A DNA stretch of 40,233 nucleotides from Desulfobacterales bacterium (lineage in GTDB: Bacteria > Desulfobacterota > Desulfobacteria > Desulfobacterales > Desulfosalsimonadaceae): NCBI GenBank assembly GCA_018335195.1, contig JAGXKN010000032.1, forward strand, positions 1 to 40,233, in the 5' to 3' direction. The notes below the pieces were generated by a model. It saw only the letters and a program-made list of their open reading frames with translations, was not told where the DNA came from and searched no databases. Positions 10,745 through 21,353 of this stretch are shown one piece after another. A program made the translations under genes and the position numbers. The stretch's first letter is position 1; each line of letters begins with the position of its first letter.

Positions 10745-12175
10745 CTACTGCATGGCGAGTTTTCCGGAAGAATCTTCATCGGCCCTGGCCAGGTGTTTGT
10801 CATCACCCAGGGAGGCATAAAGTTCTTCCAGGCTGTTTTTGGATGCCATGAATCGCTGCAGTTCCTCGCCTTCCAGCTTGCGGCCCGGCGGGGAGTCTAT
10901 TTCCTTGGGGTTGACGGGGCTTCCGGCATACCGGACTTCATAATGCAGGTGCGGACCTGTGGACCTGCCGGTGGAGCCGACATAGCCGATAACCTCTCCC
11001 TGCTTGACCCGCGCCCCCCTGCTGATACCCTCGACATAGCCGCTCATATGGGCATAAACCGTCTGGTACTGGTTGGGATGGCGGATTCTGATATAGTGAC
11101 CGTAGCTCCCCCTGGGACCGGCATATTCCACGACGCCGTCTCCGGCTGCCATGATGGGGGTTCCGGATGGCGCGGCAAAATCGAGCCCTTCGTGCATCTT
11201 GTTATATCCCAGGATGGGGTGCTTGCGCATGCCGTATCCGGAACTGGCGCTTGCGCCTTCAACAGGAGTGACCATCAGGGCCTTTTGCACGCTTTTGCCC
11301 CGACCGTCGAAAAAACCGGTTCCGCCGTCCTCGCATTCATGCCGGTATATGCGCAGGGTACGGCCGTTGGTGTGCAAAGCGGCGTACATCACGGGGCCGG
11401 TCATGGCTACTTTTCCGCGATCATCGACCCGTTCCTGGTAGAGGACCTCGATCCGGTCGCCGGGGCGGATGTCGCGCTGAAAGTCCACGTCGTAAGAATA
11501 AGCCCGCAGCACCTGCAGCAGTGCTTCAGTGGGCAGATCGGCAGCCTGTGCGGCCTGGTACAAACTGGAAGTGATCTCCGCCTCGGCACGGGCCGGACGG
11601 GTTCTGAGCTCGTGCGCCAGCTCCCGGACCTGGAAGCCATGTCCCACACGGCGCGTAACCTGTACTTCCCGGCAAACATCCAGCCTGAGGCTCAGGCCCT
11701 GGAAAACCGCATTATTTTCCTGGTTATTCACAAAAGACAAGGTCAGCTCATGGCCCTGGCGAAGTTTTGCCGGATCAAAACTTTTCTGAAGCTCGCGCAC
11801 GACTTGGTAGGCCTCCGGACTAGCGAGCCCGGCCCGGTGCAGGATGTTGATCAGGGTGTCGCCTGCAGAAACCGTGATCTGCTTTTTCTCCAGCAGGGAC
11901 CCGAAATCCTGTTCCCAGGCGTTTCGGGCAGCCGGATTCGAAGCCGGGCCGTTATTGTTTTTCTCTGCATGCTCGGATAAAGGGCTGACTTCCAGGCGGG
12001 ACTCCTGAGAGCCAAGTGTATGGGCAGACGGAACGTTGCTTGCCTGCAGAACCGCATATGCACCCAGAAAAACCAGCAGCAGGGCGGCAAAGCCCCATGG
12101 AACTGCTCTTCTGCCGCGCCTGCGGCGTTTCAGCGCCCTTATGTAGGATCTGTATTGAGAAGGCGAATATCGCAT
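10745..12175 (-). CDS. M23 family murein DD-endopeptidase (MepM/OapA-like)
   Basis: A 476-residue membrane-anchored cell-wall hydrolase that would cut peptidoglycan cross-links in the periplasm. After a very basic N-terminus (ALKRRRRGRR) there is one membrane segment (~residues 26-44, FAALLLVFLGAYAVL). A LysM/OapA-like region follows (ITVSAGDTLINILHRAGL), then an intermediate domain (TEALLQVLRAYSYDVDFQRD), then the LytM peptidase domain with the metal-site motifs HEGLDF (~residue 325) and HLHYEV (~residue 408). The long frame opens at a TTG at 12238. The ATG at 12175 is preferred because AAGGAA lies ~8 bases before it and the signal-anchor then sits normally near the N-terminus. A TTGCAT-N16-TATAAT promoter lies at 12316-12343. 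It is divergent from the amidase gene. Confidence 0.9.
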   Translation of the reverse strand: MRYSPSQYRSYIRALKRRRRGRRAVPWGFAALLLVFLGAYAVLQASNVPSAHTLGSQESRLEVSPLSEHAEKNNNGPASNPAARNAWEQDFGSLLEKKQITVSAGDTLINILHRAGLASPEAYQVVRELQKSFDPAKLRQGHELTLSFVNNQENNAVFQGLSLRLDVCREVQVTRRVGHGFQVRELAHELRTRPARAEAEITSSLYQAAQAADLPTEALLQVLRAYSYDVDFQRDIRPGDRIEVLYQERVDDRGKVAMTGPVMYAALHTNGRTLRIYRHECEDGGTGFFDGRGKSVQKALMVTPVEGASASSGYGMRKHPILGYNKMHEGLDFAAPSGTPIMAAGDGVVEYAGPRGSYGHYIRIRHPNQYQTVYAHMSGYVEGISRGARVKQGEVIGYVGSTGRSTGPHLHYEVRYAGSPVNPKEIDSPPGRKLEGEELQRFMASKNSLEELYASLGDDKHLARADEDSSGKLAMQ

Positions 12176-12315
12176 CCGATCGTTCCTTTTCCGGCACCTT
12201 GAAGGCCGCCTGAACACAAAACACCAAAATAAAAACAATACAAGAACCGTGCCGAACAGTTCTCCGGTCCGGGTTTACCCGCAAATGGTCGGGGGAATGT
12301 CTTTAATCAAATGAT

Positions 12316-12343
12316 ATTATATCAGAATCTCACAAAAATGCAA
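12316..12343 (-). promoter_or_regulatory. Sigma-70 type promoter of the M23 peptidase gene
   Basis: On the minus strand, TTGCAT (12343-12338), a 16-base spacer and a perfect TATAAT (12321-12316). It lies about 140 bases upstream of the chosen start codon of the peptidase, in the 288-base region shared with the divergent amidase gene. Confidence 0.6.
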
Positions 12344-12406
12344 CAGATACAGCCATCCGGAATAAAAAAATTTCAAAAACCCTGCCGTGCCTGTTGTTTG
12401 CCTCCC

Positions 12407-12435
12407 TTGCACAACCGTGTTTTTTCGGATACACT
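12407..12435 (+). promoter_or_regulatory. Possible promoter of the amidase gene
   Basis: TTGCAC (12407-12412), a 17-base spacer and TACACT (12430-12435), 28 bases before the ATG. Matches to consensus are moderate (three and four of six), so this is tentative. Confidence 0.3.
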
Positions 12436-12463
12436 CATTTATTAATCAAAGAAAGGAGTGAAC

Positions 12464-13930
12464 ATGAATGAACCGGCTTTTCAATCCGCCCTGGAGCAGG
12501 CCGCAGCCATCCGTACGGGCCAGATTTCCGCTGTCGAACTGCTTGAATATTACCTTGAACGGGTCCAGCGGTTTAATCCGCAGTTAAACGCGATCGTGCA
12601 GACCTGCCCCGAGTCGGCCCGCGAGCGGGCGGAAAAAGCAGACACGGCCCTTGCCCGGGGCGAGTTGTGGGGACCGCTTCACGGGGTTCCGGTAACCATC
12701 AAGGACACCCTGGAGGTTGTCGGCATGCCGTGTACTTCCGGATCCCCGGCCCTGAAAAATCACATGCCGGAAAAACACGCCGAAGCGGTGCAGTCCTACA
12801 TCGATGCCGGCGCCGTGGTATTCGGAAAAACCAATGTTCCCCTCTACGGCGGCGACCTTCAGAGTTTCAACAAGGTCTACGGCCAGAGCAATAACCCGTG
12901 GAATACGGCGCGCACTCCCGGCGGGTCCTCAGGCGGGGCGGCCGCGGCTTTGAGCGCGGGCCTCTGCTGCCTGGAGATCGGCAGCGACATCGGGGGGTCA
13001 ATCCGCACGCCGGCGCATTTCTGCGGCTTATACGGGCACAAGCCCAGCTACGGCATCGTGCCCCAGAAGGGCCACATTCCGCCGCATCCCGGAATTTTTA
13101 CGGACGAACACGGCATTTGCCTGGACATCATGGTGGTGGGACCTCTGGCCAGAAGCATTGACGACATTTCCCTGGCCATGGACCTGCTGGCCGCACCGGA
13201 ACCGGCAGAACGGCGGGGGCGGCAGATCCGCCTGCCCGAGCCCCGCAGGAACAACCTCAAAGACCTCAGAATCGGGCTGTGGATGGACGACCCGGTCTGC
13301 CCGGTGGACAGTTCCGTGGGAGAGGTGCTCCAGAATGCCGTGGACCGGCTGTCTGCCAAAAAGGCCCATATTGCCGACAAACGGCCGAACGTGGATTTTG
13401 CCGGCAGCCATGACTGCTTTTTGAGCCTGCTGGCAGCCGTCATGGGCGCGGGCACGCCGGACAAATATTTCAACAAATGGCTCGAAGACGTCAAGACGCT
13501 TTCGCCAAATGATCAGTCATACCTGGCCCGCCATCTGCGCGGCGCCACGCAGATTCACCGGGACTGGGTCATCAGAGACGGCCTGCGTCAGCTCCTGCGC
13601 CAGAGCTGGGCGGATTTTTTCCGCGAATTTGACGTGCTGCTCTGCCCGGTCGCCCCCTTGCCGGCCATTGCCCATGACCAGCAGTACCTGTATGACCGCC
13701 GGATCACGGTAAACGGAAAGCAGCGCGAATACATGGACTTAATGGGGTGGGCCGGGCTGACCGGCGTGGTCTACCTGCCCGCAACAGTGATTCCCGCAGG
13801 CCGTACAAGGGAAGGCCTGCCCGTGGGCATTCAGATCGTGGGCCCCTATCTCGAGGACCGCACCCCGATCCAGGCGGCAAAATTGGTCTCCGAGGTCCTC
13901 GGCGGATTTGTCCCGCCGGAAGGGTATTAA
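12464..13930 (+). CDS. Amidase signature family enzyme
   Basis: A 488-residue cytoplasmic hydrolase of the amidase signature family, which uses a Lys-cisSer-Ser triad. Visible residues: Lys80 in PVTIKDTLEVVG, the Gly/Ser-rich loop TPGGSSGG with Ser155, and the nucleophile Ser179 in GSDIGGSIRTPAHFCG. The substrate cannot be read from the sequence. The family includes GatA, FAAH-like and bacterial aliphatic or peptide amidases. No gatB or gatC is nearby, and the C-terminal half (RVTVNGKQREYMDLMGWAG-like segment) resembles stand-alone amidases rather than GatA. The ATG at 12464 is chosen because AAAGGAG ends 6 bases before it; the GTG at 12458 overlaps that site. It converges on tonB with a 33-base gap in which no clear terminator is seen. 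Confidence 0.9.
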   Translation: MNEPAFQSALEQAAAIRTGQISAVELLEYYLERVQRFNPQLNAIVQTCPESARERAEKADTALARGELWGPLHGVPVTIKDTLEVVGMPCTSGSPALKNHMPEKHAEAVQSYIDAGAVVFGKTNVPLYGGDLQSFNKVYGQSNNPWNTARTPGGSSGGAAAALSAGLCCLEIGSDIGGSIRTPAHFCGLYGHKPSYGIVPQKGHIPPHPGIFTDEHGICLDIMVVGPLARSIDDISLAMDLLAAPEPAERRGRQIRLPEPRRNNLKDLRIGLWMDDPVCPVDSSVGEVLQNAVDRLSAKKAHIADKRPNVDFAGSHDCFLSLLAAVMGAGTPDKYFNKWLEDVKTLSPNDQSYLARHLRGATQIHRDWVIRDGLRQLLRQSWADFFREFDVLLCPVAPLPAIAHDQQYLYDRRITVNGKQREYMDLMGWAGLTGVVYLPATVIPAGRTREGLPVGIQIVGPYLEDRTPIQAAKLVSEVLGGFVPPEGY

Positions 13931-13963: not shown

Positions 13964-14638
13964 TCACCTTAACTCGAACAAGACGGGGATGTTCATCCGG
14001 AGTGGGCCGTCAAACAGGCGGCCCGGCGGCCGGGGAAACGGCGCCGCCTGTTTGACCGCTTTCAATGCCGCCCGGTCCAGCTCCGGATGGCGCGAAGATT
14101 CAACGATTTCCGCCGAGCTCAGCGTTCCGTCCGGATCCAGGGTAAAACCCACCACCACCCGGCCCTGGAGCTGTTTTCTTCGGGCGGATTCCGGATACTC
14201 CTTGCTGCTTTCGATTTTAAGGCGCAGCATCTCAAAATAGTCCTTCCGGGTCACATACCGGCCTGCGCCCCCGGCATCCGGCTGCCAGTCCGCCACGTCC
14301 GCGGAAAGCCCCGTGGTGTCCGGCGCTGAAATTTCCTCGGAAATGGTATCCGGCACATCGGCATCCACCGGATCCATTTTTATATCCGGCACCTCGGGTT
14401 TGGCGGCGTCGATCTTGCTGACCTCATTGACCTCGGGGGCTTTTCTGTGCATCCGGGGCTGTGGAATGGATCGCTGCCAGGGGTTTTCCTCCCTTACGGT
14501 CAGCTCGATGACCCGCCGGGTGTCTGAATCATAAAGATCGGCAATGCGCACGAAAATGACCAGGTGTATTCCCAGGGAAACCACCACCATGGCCCACAGC
14601 ACCCAGTTGGGCTGTTTTTCGTCGTTTTCGAGACTCAC
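13964..14638 (-). CDS. tonB: TonB family energy transducer
   Basis: A 224-residue TonB protein that would couple the inner-membrane proton motive force, through ExbB/ExbD, to outer-membrane receptors. One membrane segment spans ~12-30 and carries the Ser-x3-His pattern (SLGIH, Ser21/His25) known in TonB to be needed for coupling. A periplasmic linker rich in Pro, Asp and Lys follows. The C-terminal domain starts near YPESARRKQLQG and contains the conserved GRVVVGFTLDPDG strand. The preferred start is GTG at 14638: it overlaps the exbD stop as GTGA, and AAGGGAG lies 11 bases upstream. A GTG at 14671 in the same frame would give 235 residues. It is the last gene of the riboswitch-led operon, so its partner is most likely a corrinoid uptake route. 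Confidence 0.9.
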   Translation of the reverse strand: MSLENDEKQPNWVLWAMVVVSLGIHLVIFVRIADLYDSDTRRVIELTVREENPWQRSIPQPRMHRKAPEVNEVSKIDAAKPEVPDIKMDPVDADVPDTISEEISAPDTTGLSADVADWQPDAGGAGRYVTRKDYFEMLRLKIESSKEYPESARRKQLQGRVVVGFTLDPDGTLSSAEIVESSRHPELDRAALKAVKQAAPFPRPPGRLFDGPLRMNIPVLFELR

Positions 14639-15051
14639 GGCCGGAAATTCTCCCTTTCCGTGGCCAGACACAGCCGTGCGGCCCCCGCCGCCTTGGCAAT
14701 GTCCATGACCTTTACGGCCTTGTTTAAGACCACCCTGCGATCCGACTTGACCACCACCAGGCGGTCAGAGTCGCTGCCGATCATCTTGTTTAGCCGGGTG
14801 TAGAGCTGGTCCATTTCCACGGCCTCGTCCATGAGATAAGCCTGCCCGCTTTGGTCCACATGGACCGTAATCTCCTTTTGCGCCTGGGGCGCCGAGGCCT
14901 TTGCCTGGGGCAGCTTGACCTGTATGCCTTCCTCCACCATGAAGTTCGTGGTCAGCAGAAAATAGATCAGCAGCATAAAGACAATATCGATCAGCGAAGT
15001 CAGCGGGGCCTGGATCATGTAGCGCTCGCGCTTTTTAAATCTCAAAGCCAT
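14635..15051 (-). CDS. exbD: Biopolymer transport protein ExbD
   Basis: A 138-residue ExbD/TolR protein, part of the proton-driven ExbB-ExbD motor that energises TonB. It has a short basic cytoplasmic N-terminus, one membrane helix at ~20-38 (LIDIVFMLLIYFLLTT) with the essential aspartate at residue 22, and a periplasmic domain (EITVHVDQSGQAYL; VVVKSDRRV). The ATG follows AAGGAAAAAAGCTT. It lies 74 bases after exbB; that gap contains a GCGGCC/GGCCGC inverted repeat near 15094-15118. It overlaps tonB by four bases. TolR is the alternative, but with tonB adjacent and no tolA, tolB or pal, ExbD is favoured. Confidence 0.92.
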   Translation of the reverse strand: MALRFKKRERYMIQAPLTSLIDIVFMLLIYFLLTTNFMVEEGIQVKLPQAKASAPQAQKEITVHVDQSGQAYLMDEAVEMDQLYTRLNKMIGSDSDRLVVVKSDRRVVLNKAVKVMDIAKAAGAARLCLATERENFRP

Positions 15052-15125
15052 AAGCTTTTTTCCTTGTTTCTTTTTGGTACTTCCCGACCGGCGGCCGCAC
15101 GCGGTCTGCAGGCCGCACCGGATTT

Positions 15126-15734
15126 TTATTTCCGGTCTGCCACGGCCGTTAAAAAGGCCACAGCGCCCTCCTGGAGGCGGGCTTCATATTTTTCGATCCG
15201 GGAGATCAGATACGAATGGGCCACCATGGTGGGCAGCGCCACTGCCAGGCCCAGGGCGGTGGTCAGCATGGCCTCCCAGATGCCGCCGGCAAGTACTGCG
15301 GCATTGACCTTGCCGCCCATCTGCTGGATCACCATGAACGCCTTGATCATTCCGATCACGGTACCGAGAAGCCCCAGCAGTGGCGCAATATTGCCGATAG
15401 TGGCAAGCGCCTGGGTGTAACTGGATAGCTTGCGGACCTCGGTATCCGTGGCATGCGTAATCACGGATTCCAGGATCTCCCGGTCCTGGTGCCTGACCCC
15501 GAGCGCCTGACTCAAAACTTGTCCCATTGGGGAACGGCTCTGAATCGCGGTCTCGTAGGCGCCCTGATCGTTGCCCTTGCGAATTTGGGCCACCACCTTT
15601 TCCGCAAGCCCCGCGCCCCGGCTTTTGAGCCGGGTGAAATGAATCAGCCGCTCGGCAAATATGGCCAGCGCCAGCACGGAGCAAAGCAGTATCGGGACAA
15701 CCAGCACGCCCCCCTTGGACAAAAATTCAATCAT
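15126..15734 (-). CDS. exbB: Biopolymer transport protein ExbB (MotA/TolQ/ExbB family)
   Basis: A 202-residue inner-membrane proton channel subunit. Three hydrophobic segments are visible: ~9-29 (LVVPILLCSVLALAIFAE), ~108-130 (IGNIAPLLGLLGTVIGM, the family signature) and ~150-172 (TTALGLAVALPTMVAHS). The cytoplasmic loop between the first two fits ExbB and TolQ. Its ATG overlaps the stop of the upstream repeat-protein gene as ATGA, so the two are translationally coupled. This ties the exported repeat protein to the energising motor. Confidence 0.93.
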   Translation of the reverse strand: MIEFLSKGGVLVVPILLCSVLALAIFAERLIHFTRLKSRGAGLAEKVVAQIRKGNDQGAYETAIQSRSPMGQVLSQALGVRHQDREILESVITHATDTEVRKLSSYTQALATIGNIAPLLGLLGTVIGMIKAFMVIQQMGGKVNAAVLAGGIWEAMLTTALGLAVALPTMVAHSYLISRIEKYEARLQEGAVAFLTAVADRK

Positions 15735-17590
15735 TGGTTTTCCTCCGAATTGGTTCCGGTTTGTTTATCCGTCAGCGCCTCTGCGGCCCTACCGGTTTCT
15801 GCATCGGCCTGTTCCCCTTCTGCGACATCCGGGGCGCCGTCATAGTTCAAATCCTTTTCCCGTTTGATAAGGGCGCCGGATTCATCATAGGTTTCCCAGA
15901 TATCCGGGGCGCCGTCGGCATTGCGGTCTTCCTCGACCCGTCGGATCCGCCCGTTGGTGTAATAAAACCAGACATCCGCGTTTCCATCCCCGTTTTGATC
16001 CTTTTGCGCGCGGACCGGTTCTTCCGAGTCATTGTAGAACCATACCAGGTCTGGATCCTTTGGGCCGCTGCCGTATTCAATGGCTTTTGTCAGCTTTTCG
16101 GCGTTGTCGTAGAACTCCCGGAAATCCATTTCCCCGTCATTGTTTTCGTCTGCGGTCTTCTGCCTGAGCACGCCCTGTTTATAAAAATACCGGGCCTCCG
16201 GGGTCTGATCGGCGTCCGTGTCGCGTTCCATGACCATGGACCATTCAGCATGGCCAAAGCGCTGGGTAACTTCAAAATGCCCGTCCCCGTCGGCATCCTT
16301 GATCACTTTGCGCTTATCCCCGTTTTCATAAAACGCCCGTAGATCCACCCGGCCATCTGCGCTTTCATCCTTTTCCAGCCGGGAAAGCTCCCCGTTTTCG
16401 TAATACTGCCAGGTATCCGCAGATCCGTTGAAATTCGTGTCACTTTCTACTTTTTCCCTTTGCTCTTCGGCGTTAAAGTAGATCGTGGTATCCGGCTTGC
16501 CGTCCTGGTTTTCATCCCGGGTCTGCCGGCGGATTTTCCCGTTTTCAAAATAGGTCACGGTTTCCAGGAACCCGTCGCCGTCTGCATCGGATGCCATGCG
16601 CACGGGTTGGCCGGCTTCAAAATACCGGATCCGGTCAATATTGCCGGTATGCCGGGTGTCTTCTTCGATCTTTTTGACCTGCCCCTTTTTGTCAAACCGG
16701 GTGAAGATATCTGACTTGCCGTCATGGTTGCTGTCTTTTTCCCGGAAAACCGGGCTACCGTCCTTAAACTCCGTGAATACGTCAAAGCGGCCGTCGCAGT
16801 TGGCATCCTTTTTTTGTCTGACCGGCTGACTGCCGCGAAACTCCGTGACTTCATCGACCCGGCCGTCATAATCGGTGTCTTTTTTCTGAACAGCGATCTC
16901 CCCGTTTTCGTAATACCGCATGGTTTCGAGTTTGCCGTCGCCTGAAAGATCATGATGGCTTTCTTCGGGCTCGCCCTGGCTGTTATAAAAAATGATGCGC
17001 TCATATATGCCGTCTTCGTTATGATCCACCCGGCGTGCAAGCGGGCGGTTCCCCCGAAAGCTCTGCCATTGGTCGATTATTCCGTTTTCGTTTGCGTCCC
17101 GGGTTGAAGATTTCAATTTGCCGTTTTCAAACCGGTATATGGTGTCAAAAAAACCGCTGCCGGTGGTATCCGACTTAATCTTCTGCGGCCGGCCGTCGCT
17201 GTCAAAAAATGTCACGCGGATGACCTGACCGCTTTCGTCGGTGCGCTCCCTGCGCTTGCGCGTGCCGCCGGAAAAATAATCAATGGTCTCGATCCGCCCG
17301 TCTGCATCCGTGTCCCGCTCAACGCGCACCACGGTTTCATTCTTGTAGTACTGAAACTGATCCATCCGCCCGTCATTGTCGGAGTCAAGCGCCAGGCGCG
17401 CAATCCGGTCGTTTTCATCAAAAACCGCGATCCGGTCGATTCTGCCGTCATCGTTGGTGTCCTTTTCCACGCTTCTGCCGGCGGCAGCCGAGACAACAGC
17501 GATCTGCACGCAAAAAAGCACGATCACCGCCGGCAGCAGCCTGCATCCGAAACCGCGGTTTTCTGAAAATCGCCTTTTTTTCATGCGCAT
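15731..17590 (-). CDS. Exported tandem-repeat protein, about 23 DxDxDGxxD / YxNG units, B12-riboswitch controlled
   Basis: A 619-residue protein with a long signal peptide (basic MRMKKRR start, hydrophobic LLPAVIVLFCVQIAVVSAAA, cleavage near AAAG). Almost all of the mature part is about 23 repeats of ~24 residues. Each has an acidic loop of the type DTDADGRIE or DADGDGFLE, resembling calcium-binding EF-hand or thrombospondin-3 loops, then an aromatic strand and turn such as YYENGELSRLE, resembling MORN/YwqK-type hairpins. Units near residues 85 and 470 are degenerate. A short Glu/Ala/Thr tail ends the protein; no outer-membrane barrel, lipobox or catalytic motif is seen. The ATG at 17590 is chosen over an upstream frame to 17731 because that extension runs through the terminator, and GGGAG lies 8 bases before 17590. 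It is the first gene after a cobalamin riboswitch and overlaps exbB as ATGA. Calcium binding and a corrinoid-uptake role are inferences. Confidence 0.85.
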   Translation of the reverse strand: MRMKKRRFSENRGFGCRLLPAVIVLFCVQIAVVSAAAGRSVEKDTNDDGRIDRIAVFDENDRIARLALDSDNDGRMDQFQYYKNETVVRVERDTDADGRIETIDYFSGGTRKRRERTDESGQVIRVTFFDSDGRPQKIKSDTTGSGFFDTIYRFENGKLKSSTRDANENGIIDQWQSFRGNRPLARRVDHNEDGIYERIIFYNSQGEPEESHHDLSGDGKLETMRYYENGEIAVQKKDTDYDGRVDEVTEFRGSQPVRQKKDANCDGRFDVFTEFKDGSPVFREKDSNHDGKSDIFTRFDKKGQVKKIEEDTRHTGNIDRIRYFEAGQPVRMASDADGDGFLETVTYFENGKIRRQTRDENQDGKPDTTIYFNAEEQREKVESDTNFNGSADTWQYYENGELSRLEKDESADGRVDLRAFYENGDKRKVIKDADGDGHFEVTQRFGHAEWSMVMERDTDADQTPEARYFYKQGVLRQKTADENNDGEMDFREFYDNAEKLTKAIEYGSGPKDPDLVWFYNDSEEPVRAQKDQNGDGNADVWFYYTNGRIRRVEEDRNADGAPDIWETYDESGALIKREKDLNYDGAPDVAEGEQADAETGRAAEALTDKQTGTNSEENQ

Positions 17591-17630
17591 TGACCTGTCT
17601 CCCGTATTTTCAGGGCCGATCCGGATCCAT

Positions 17631-17672
17631 AAAAAAAGCCCTCCAGGCACATCGCAATCGTGCCTGAAGGGC
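17631..17672 (-). terminator. Intrinsic terminator, expression platform of the cobalamin riboswitch
   Basis: On the minus strand, GCCCTTCAGGCAC pairs with GTGCCTGGAGGGC around a nine-base loop with one mismatch, followed by seven T residues (17637-17631). It lies 80 bases past the aptamer and 40 bases before the start codon of the repeat protein. Between aptamer and terminator, ACATCGG/CCGATGT and GGTTC/GAACC repeats (about 17704-17747) could form the alternative antiterminator fold. Confidence 0.85.
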
Positions 17673-17750
17673 TGCACCCAGTTTTCTTGGCCCCTGTTGT
17701 ATCCACATCGGAGGTTCGGCACCTGAACCACCGCAGGCCGCCGATGTATC

Positions 17751-17927
17751 GGTTAAGGCAGGTCTTCTGGCTCCCCTGTCTTTTCAGCAGCCTTCCCGCC
17801 CGGCTTCGACCGGACAGTGGCGTCTGGTGCTGAAAAGATTTTCGCCTCAGCGGCGAAACAGGGTTACAGCGGCGGGACCGCTCCCGATTTTCACGGGATT
17901 CCCTATTAAGCAAATCACACCTTAACC
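17751..17927 (-). promoter_or_regulatory. Cobalamin (B12) riboswitch aptamer
   Basis: The minus strand carries the conserved landmarks in order. P1 arms are GGTTAAGG (17927-17920) and CCTTAACC (17758-17751). The core has GGGAATCCCGTGAAAATCGG and the GCGGTCCCGCCGCTGTAACC segment, then GCCACTGTCCGG and GGGAAGGC. The B12 box AGCCAGAAGACCTGCC lies at 17772-17757. The class (Rfam Cobalamin) binds adenosyl- or other cobalamins and usually switches off corrinoid uptake or synthesis genes. Here it is followed by an intrinsic terminator and the repeat protein-exbB-exbD-tonB operon. Transcription would end early when cobalamin is bound. Confidence 0.94.
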
Positions 17928-17932
17928 ATTTT

Positions 17933-17962
17933 TTATTACCAACAGGTCTGCGCATAAGTCAA
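17933..17962 (-). promoter_or_regulatory. Candidate promoter of the riboswitch operon
   Basis: On the minus strand, TTGACT (17962-17957), an 18-base spacer and TAATAA (17938-17933). The -35 matches five of six; the -10 is weaker. Transcription would begin near 17926, at the first bases of the P1 stem of the aptamer, which supports the placement. Confidence 0.5.
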
Positions 17963-20420: not shown

Positions 20421-21101
20421 CTTTGGCCTGCCGGGGGCCCGCAGTTCAATCCGGCGACCGGTTTGCCGCGAGATTTCCTGCTCAATCTGCCGGCTCGCGG
20501 TTAATTTTCCTCTCTGGGCAGCTTCCCGGATCAGCCCCGTTTCCTTTTTCTCAACGGTTCCCAGAAGCCATTTTCGATAGCGCTGTGCCCTGCTTTCAGG
20601 TGTTTTTCCAAATTCCATATAGTATGGGTCAAAGTCAAGCCATTCGCATTTTTTCAGCCCCGTGCGCACCCCGCAGCTTGACCAAGGATAGCGCGTAGAG
20701 TCCTCGATAAGGCCGGCACGCAATGGATTTAACTCTACATAGCGTCAACAGGCAAGCAGATATTCATTTGCAGCAATCGGACTGGATTTAAAGCGGCCCT
20801 CCCAAAGGGTGCCGCTTCTCTTTGTTTTTTTATTGACATATCGGGTCTGGCGGCCGGCAAGGTGCTTCATGAGCCGACTCAGGTTCTCCGGCGCATCTCC
20901 CGGATCAATGACAAGGTGCACATGGTTGGGCATAAGACAATAGGTATACACCCTGCACGCGAACTCGAATTTTAACTCCTCGAGATTTTTCAAATAAAAT
21001 CGATAATCCCCTTCTCCGGCAAAAACTGCCTGCCGGTTGTGCCCCCGTTGGATAATATGATGCGGAAAGTTGGCAAGAAGTAATCGCTTTTCCCTAGGCA
21101 T
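20412..21101 (-). pseudogene. REP-associated tyrosine transposase (RAYT, Y1_Tnp/IS200-like), interrupted by an in-frame TGA
   Basis: Conceptual product of about 229 residues starting MPREKRLLLANFPHHIIQRG, a typical RAYT N-terminus. The HUH motif is PNHVHLVI, and the catalytic-tyrosine region reads RYVNKKTKRSGTLWEGRFKS. The frame is stopped by TGA at 20747-20745 (codons Leu-Leu-Ala-Cys-stop-Arg-Tyr-Val-Glu-Leu-Asn-Pro), then continues in frame to TAG at 20412 with RAGLIEDSTRYPWSS. Relatives commonly have Cys or another residue at that place, so a single TGC-to-TGA change would explain it. The ATG at 21101 fits homologues better than a longer frame to 21308, which only translates the flanking repeat. 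No good ribosome binding site is seen. Read-through as selenocysteine cannot be excluded, but no SECIS-like hairpin is apparent. Confidence 0.8.
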
Positions 21102-21161
21102 ATATTGCGCATATCGTTTATCCACTGGAATGTCAAAAAATTTCCCTTTACTTAAAAAATC

Positions 21162-21188
21162 AAAAAAAATAGATCTGTCCCCTTTTTT
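21162..21188. repeat. Right inverted repeat of the RAYT module
   Basis: An A run, ATAGATCTGTCCCC and a T run, the reverse complement of 20397-20420 apart from run lengths. It lies 60 bases upstream of the transposase start. Confidence 0.75.
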
Positions 21189-21353
21189 CAGCAATTGATC
21201 CGGCCGATAACGGGCTGCGGTGTCTTCCAGGGGGTGAAAAAGCGATTTGCAGCATATTCCTCCGCCGGCTGCAGGATCGTAGAAAACCCCGATGCCCGGC
21301 TCCGGCATTGATTGAATCCGGCTTGGTCCTTGACGAGCGGCACGGGATATCGT

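Follow-up and report, generated by a model that had tools for sequence, protein, structure and literature searches.

On a 40,233-nucleotide stretch of the genome of a Desulfobacterales bacterium (GenBank assembly GCA_018335195.1, contig JAGXKN010000032.1; hereafter the window), a cobalamin riboswitch and an intrinsic terminator precede an operon that joins a repeat protein, here termed REP, to the ExbB, ExbD and TonB subunits of a TonB motor, and relatives of REP recur beside the same three genes in other genomes. We tentatively favor, with confidence a little short of even, the reading that the operon encodes a B12-controlled TonB motor for uptake of a metal (probably cobalt) or of corrinoids, to which REP would be an accessory in the periplasm. 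The elements follow one another on the minus strand from 17939 to 13964 in this order:

17740 to 17939, minus strand: cobalamin riboswitch aptamer (RF00174); cmscan 96 bits, E 7e-23; leader 94% identical in locus L034 of genome G001.
17637 to 17673, minus strand: intrinsic terminator, likely expression platform; 15 pairs followed by a T run; retained in L034.
15731 to 17590, minus strand: REP, 619 residues of beta-hairpin repeats, with an N-terminus that resembles a signal peptide and loops of the DxDxDG type; assigned from sequence, DUF6802 and MORN_2 matches, an AlphaFold model and linkage.
15126 to 15734, minus strand: exbB (MotA/TolQ/ExbB channel); MotA_ExbB (PF01618), 109 bits.
14635 to 15051, minus strand: exbD; ExbD (PF02472), 100 bits.
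13964 to 14638, minus strand: tonB, with a GTG start overlapping the exbD stop; TonB_C (PF03544), 69.7 bits on 13964-14671; start placed from the sequence.

The aptamer matches the Rfam model over its full length (positions 1-189) and scores 96 bits where the gathering score is 31.5, in agreement with the complete cobalamin aptamer called by a first-pass annotation of this DNA. The terminator named in the same annotation also holds up: the hairpin at 17673-17637 folds with a free energy of -27.5 kcal/mol (z -5.0, equalled by 0 of 200 shuffles) and is likely the expression platform of the riboswitch. The promoter fared less well, as a consensus scan of the minus strand returned none, though TTGACT about 18 nt upstream of TAATAA is visible by eye in the leader and is mostly retained in the sister genome G001. 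Downstream, exbB, exbD and tonB are present as first described, with ATGA and GTGA overlaps at REP/exbB and exbD/tonB, respectively, and a 74-nt gap between exbB and exbD. All three subunits pass their Pfam cut-offs, and the TonB C-terminal domain scores 82.6 bits with TIGR01352 tonB_Cterm (cut-off 27.1). The window genome (3.29 Mb in 99 contigs, 99.74% complete) contains two ExbB and two TonB_C matches, and the second ExbB/ExbD/TonB_C set, on contig C54, looks like the Tol system to judge by its neighbors.

The association of REP with the motor, first claimed for this operon, extends to its homologues. We counted exbB as linked when it lay on the same strand and no more than 2.5 kb downstream or 1.5 kb upstream of REP, and comparable limits applied to exbD and tonB. 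Among the best 80 of 134 loci from a scan of genome contigs (the named loci, to which the counts given for them apply), exbB, exbD and tonB are all linked to REP in 59 of the 63 with at least 2.5 kb of downstream sequence, the misses being L090, L151, L156 and L157. By label, most of these loci belong to Desulfobacterales, Desulfobacteraceae, Deltaproteobacteria or single sulfate-reducer genera; some read Proteobacteria alone, and L155 (Methylomirabilota), L156 (Desulfurellaceae) and L157 (Schekmanbacteria) are outliers. Desulfosarcina alkanivorans and D. widdelii are among the cultured bacteria with a REP operon. The whole-genome relatives, which have 14 records in common with the named loci, carry all three motor genes by REP in 26 of 28 loci with the same downstream reach (misses L062 and L070). 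REP is matched at E <= 0.001 in 39 of 98 genomes, the window's own included; two matches are weak, one in G043 (1.7e-8; no exbB near) and one in G059 (5e-5), whose locus L072 scored under the 50-bit limit and was set aside, so that 39 of the 40 fetched loci were kept. A survey of the phylum recovered REP at E <= 1e-15 in 31 of 395 genomes, and exbB lies beside it in 24 of the 30 loci fetched (own included in both counts); the others are L196, where the contig ends at REP, L207, with exbD and tonB matches only, and L213, L216, L217 and L220. Short relatives of about 280-350 residues keep the motor neighbor in L208, L214 and L218 and not in L216 and L217. Genomes with REP contain a median of 5 Plug matches (39 genomes) versus 2 in those without (59 genomes, 54 of which have a Plug match), with p 0.0015 before any kinship correction. 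Judged from gene order, REP belongs with the motor rather than with corrinoids in themselves.

Two variants of the arrangement were observed. Locus L090, where no exbB or exbD match lies near REP and whose genome has three MotA_ExbB matches on other contigs, encodes at 11870-13654 a protein that joins an AAA_22 ATPase to a TonB C-terminal domain, with REP on one side of it and a TonB-dependent receptor on the other; we take this ATPase to be ExeA/GspA-like. In a second REP subfamily (L054, L055, L058, L064, L067 and relatives), a ParA/MinD-type ATPase, presumably CooC-like, follows tonB, and the operon adjoins either NfeD/FloA genes or genes of the CdhD and pterin-binding types, which may hint at nickel for carbon monoxide dehydrogenase.

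One check proposed in the first-pass annotation was whether the homologues sit repeatedly behind cobalamin riboswitches; in the loci covered here they seldom do. We scanned 40 fetched loci with Rfam models and covered the 80 named loci with a motif detector only, which on L034-L157 recovered 5 of 5 known riboswitches and gave no match in 1.84 Mb of single-base-shuffled sequence. Of 105 non-redundant loci, 88 have at least 400 bp upstream, and outside the window a riboswitch directly precedes REP in just one of these, L034, from the same genus; more distant riboswitches lie 3 kb from REP in L037 (Rfam) and about 6 kb before it in L089 (detector). The riboswitch was accordingly rejected as a trait of the REP family. 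Each of the 31 searched genomes that carry REP has cobalamin riboswitches somewhere, so the switch was within their reach, and as far as these scans reach its use on a REP operon is local. Other signals stand in its place elsewhere. In L081 (the same record as L040), nikR (PF08753, 103 bits) is the gene immediately upstream of REP and is itself preceded by a perfect GTGTTAC-N13-GTAACAC box, given as the delta-proteobacterial NikR signal in the accessible portion of PMC545781, and in L055/L144, again one record, a box that resembles the Fur signal (3 mismatches) lies about 20 bp before the REP match. Upstream sequence sufficed for a box search in 99 of 119 loci, and in these the two cases were the NikR boxes (at most 2 mismatches; 2 loci, one record) and Fur boxes (at most 3; 2 loci, one record) found, and no Zur box with at most 3 mismatches was found; looser settings gave mostly chance-level matches.

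This variety of control, together with neighbors that range from NikKMLQO-type and BtuF-like genes to CdhD/pterin-binding genes (L064, L067) and NfeD/FloA, suits a general TonB motor, the one motor of a genome with one receptor, that the riboswitch ties to one of several nutrients, with REP structural or part of the envelope and without a role toward any substrate. We consider this unlikely, though the strongest of the rival explanations, as the two regulators recognized elsewhere and many of the recognizable transporters indicate nickel, cobalt, iron or corrinoid. The same evidence does not support the claim that REP is dedicated to corrinoids, since homologues elsewhere stand with a NikR box and nikR or with NikKMLQO-type genes, or have no reference corrinoid genes in reach.

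The preference for cobalt draws on the remainder of the window genome, where cobalamin riboswitches occur at three places: before the REP operon, on contig C42 and on contig C20. The C42 riboswitch precedes cbiK, FecCD, Peripla_BP_2, CbiA/GATase_3, cbiL-type and CbiD genes, with an ATP-binding cassette (ABC) ATPase-like gene, named from its Walker motif, between FecCD and Peripla_BP_2, and the C20 riboswitch precedes cobT, which places B12-synthesis genes under B12 switches. The earlier statement that no Btu genes are present is correct for the REP operon, but the genome does have the FecCD, Peripla_BP_2 and ABC-ATPase-like genes on C42. The only Plug match in the genome is a receptor gene of 690 residues on contig C61, followed by a DUF4198 gene (PF10670, NikK-like; 66.9 bits, cut-off 34), a match that conveys DUF4198 membership only and not nickel/cobalt specificity, and by a NikL-like gene that scores 23.7 bits with DUF4198 (cut-off 34) and is named from its position. 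Relatives of this receptor at E <= 1e-60 occur in 6 of 37 genomes examined (own included); in G018 (74%), G019 (48%) and G049 (42%) the relative shares a contig with REP at a distance of 3-4 kb. In G019, NikM and NikQ follow on from the receptor set and a cobQ-type gene flanks REP on its other side, and in G006, of the same genus as the window, receptor, NikK and NikL are followed by CbiF-like, NikM, NikQ and ABC-ATPase-like genes. The three genes on C61 thus resemble one half of a REP-receptor-Nik cluster that has come apart. According to the accessible part of PMC2667541, NikKMLQO sets that neighbor B12 genes or riboswitches are assigned to cobalt, and orphan NikK/NikL without clear function have been reported. 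Since NikK/NikL-like genes follow the sole Plug-bearing receptor, cobalt, which had been offered as the alternative to corrinoid, is a somewhat better fit than the capture of corrinoids; that this receptor takes up cobalt is what we infer.

Under this cobalt-or-corrinoid reading, the operon would supply the only TonB motor found in the window genome, plus REP as an accessory. When adenosylcobalamin is scarce, transcription would pass the terminator and REP, ExbB, ExbD and TonB would be made, assuming that the riboswitch is an off-switch. ExbB and ExbD would then power TonB from the proton gradient, and TonB would open the C61 receptor; with the NikK-/NikL-like proteins, this receptor would bring cobalt or a cobalt complex (most likely) or a corrinoid (next) into the periplasm and feed B12 metabolism. 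REP may be a long beta-sheet rod with calcium-held DxDxDG loops, located in the periplasm with the motor and acting as a tether, guide or substrate scaffold.

Several observations weigh against this reading. The window leader contains no antitermination pairing of at least 7 bases; the L034 leader has one of 8 bases, and its unconstrained fold differs from the aptamer fold. ExbB and ExbD lie nearer to tolQ (96.7 of 221) and tolR (64.1 of 127.3) than to the NCBIfam equivalogs exbB (74.6, cut-off 206.2), ExbD (51.4) and ExbD_1 (48.2, cut-off 152.95), all of these and tolA (36.9 of 59.45) being missed; we read the motor as Ton-like because of its TonB C-terminal domain and the receptors nearby. 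The C61 receptor scores best with a haem-receptor model (249 bits, cut-off 316.85) and far under the cut-off of the B12-receptor model BtuB (TIGR01779; 134.5, cut-off 599.7), so that cobalt or a corrinoid is a putative substrate, and the accessible text of PMC3751524 describes two Caulobacter DUF4198 genes as Fur-/iron-regulated, one of them clustered with an annotated hemin receptor. G006 and G020 have the receptor with NikK-/NikL-like genes and no REP match, so the receptor need not have REP beside it in a genome. No more than 76% complete, the sister genome G001 has no relative of the C61 receptor at E <= 1e-60, and one of its two Plug matches (L234) is 26% identical to that receptor. A separate NikKMLQO-type set is present on contig C19 of the window genome, the distribution of REP in the phylum is patchy, and many REP loci show no reference metal or corrinoid genes.

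In a further alternative, corrinoid salvage, the motor would serve a BtuB-type receptor and REP would aid corrinoid capture, feeding the BtuCDF-like transporter of C42. The cbiK, FecCD and Peripla_BP_2 genes of the C42 riboswitch operon are consistent with this, as is a receptor gene in G019 that scores best with the B12-receptor model (163 bits, cut-off 599.7) and stands behind a riboswitch 3 kb from the REP operon. We judge it slightly less probable than a general motor: the sole Plug-bearing receptor is far under the BtuB cut-off and travels with NikK/NikL-like genes, and the C42 binding protein, at 33.9 of 234, is far under the BtuF equivalog cut-off. The neighbors of REP operons were counted from reference genes only, so that the counts are lower bounds. 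Among the 31 named loci that extend at least 5 kb to either side of REP, we found within 9 kb a TonB-dependent receptor in 21, NikL-like genes in 7, BtuF-like genes in 6 (a point for salvage), DUF4198 in 6, CbiF-like genes in 5 and cobQ-type genes in 0; for 16 whole-genome loci the counts are 6, 3, 2, 2, 2 and 1. These counts led us to reject REP as a marker of corrinoid genes as a rule. Homologues do on occasion lie close to them, with a cobQ-type gene about 0.5 kb from REP in G014, G019 and G022 (G014 and G022 being outside the counted loci), so the refuting case named at the outset, in which the two never occur together, does not hold either. NikM/NikQ-type genes adjoin REP operons in six loci (L035, with NikM only, L037, L082, L093, L113 and L125).

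The predicted structure of REP is all-beta. Its AlphaFold model, from 36 sequences, has a mean predicted local distance difference test score of 88.5 and a predicted template modeling (TM) score of 0.64, with 450 of 619 residues at 90 or above, so that the beta-hairpins are modeled with confidence. It contains 46 strands, or about 23 hairpins, in line with the roughly 23 repeats first described, and a single helix (19-35) within a putative signal peptide; no lipobox is apparent by eye. Loops of the form D-x-[DNS]-x-[DNG]-G-x-x-[DENG] number 18 in the window REP and 7 to 19 in 35 aligned relatives, and conservation peaks at residues 541-588, near the C-terminus. Loops of the DxDxDG type bind calcium in integrins and EF-hand proteins. 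Family models place the protein loosely: DUF6802 (PF20615) matches at 43.8 bits (gathering score 27; best stretch 31-70 of 102 positions), MORN_2 (PF07661) falls under its gathering score of 29.6 at 28.1, and the best solved structure by sequence, among weak matches only, is lanmodulin (E 0.007). Foldseek ranks Rhs/YD proteins first (E about 1e-15), and VIA gives Z of 9.7-11.4 for SdgB/TarM (100-125 residues), 6.8-10.5 for OspA forms and 7.9 for Morn1, values that for repeats may reflect a common arrangement only, in matches that cover parts or have high root-mean-square deviation. Full-length TM-scores between the REP model and OspA, MORN, Rhs, SdgB or TarM-type sheets are just 0.05-0.2, despite the resemblance in parts. 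We found no description of REP in the literature searched, whose reach excluded most subscription papers.

Stacked at 4.8 A each, 46 strands would by simple arithmetic give a rod of about 22 nm. It is conceivable, though we hold it clearly less probable than the cobalt-or-corrinoid reading as a whole, that REP is an extra subunit of the TonB machine, a calcium-stapled beta-sheet rod that spans the periplasm beside TonB and guides or stabilizes the contact between motor and receptor, with lineages swapping riboswitch, NikR or Fur to put the machine under cobalt/B12, nickel or iron control. How TonB crosses the periplasm and passes force to the receptor is still debated, and the recurrence of REP with exbB, exbD and tonB in sulfate reducers makes it a concrete, testable candidate TonB component. 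A surface or secreted adhesin that is in the operon by chance seems very improbable: the top NCBIfam match of REP is indeed the Lsa25.6 family adhesin (NF050087), but its 68.6 bits miss the cut-off of 150, and the exbB-exbD-tonB linkage recurs across the order and beyond. Least credible of all is a chance or decayed riboswitch, which the restriction of the element directly before REP to the window and G001 might suggest, but which is hard to square with a full-length 96-bit match, a terminator and a leader that is 94% identical between two species with REP proteins 89% identical.

The operon differs from known systems in its combination of parts. As with known cobalamin riboswitches, a complete RF00174 aptamer and an intrinsic terminator stand before uptake genes; the accessible part of PMC545781, however, lists cbi, btuCDF and nrdDG genes behind the B12 elements of six delta-proteobacteria, whereas the window element precedes a TonB motor and a repeat protein. 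The motor has the same three subunits as TonB-ExbB-ExbD, with REP added as first gene and with ExbB and ExbD far below the equivalog cut-offs. NikK-/NikL-like genes adjoin the receptor as in NikKMLQO transporters, of which neither REP nor a TonB motor is mentioned as a part in the accessible portions of PMC545781 and PMC2667541. As far as its genes suggest, the operon would resemble BtuB-BtuG/BtuH of Bacteroides in pairing a B12 riboswitch with uptake that depends on TonB and with an extra protein that is exported; BtuG is a beta-propeller surface lipoprotein, according to the accessible part of PMC10404256, whereas REP has no visible lipobox and is modeled as a repeat sheet. Differing control of one operon family by a B12 riboswitch, a NikR box or a Fur-like box could be used to assign substrates to receptors that sequence models are unable to name.

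Additional features were noted near these genes and in related genomes. G005, of the same genus as the window and with a 4 Mb genome, has at least 15 cobalamin riboswitches and 13 Plug matches. Receptors of note lie at L035:4116-6266, L038:12226-14472 and L147:7650-9574: one receptor next to a REP operon matches the NCBIfam 'FCYXU motif-type' model at 764 bits (cut-off 825), a name that may point to selenocysteine. Some receptor frames in the vicinity are split in two, which could be due to in-frame UGA or to frameshifts. CbiF-like tetrapyrrole methylases recur near receptors or Nik genes (L038:14526-15443, L041:16275-17132, L238:2946-3812), and the two that were scanned score far under the CbiF cut-off. 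In the window itself, a protein with an IS200-like Y1 transposase domain (48 bits) is encoded at 20745-21308.

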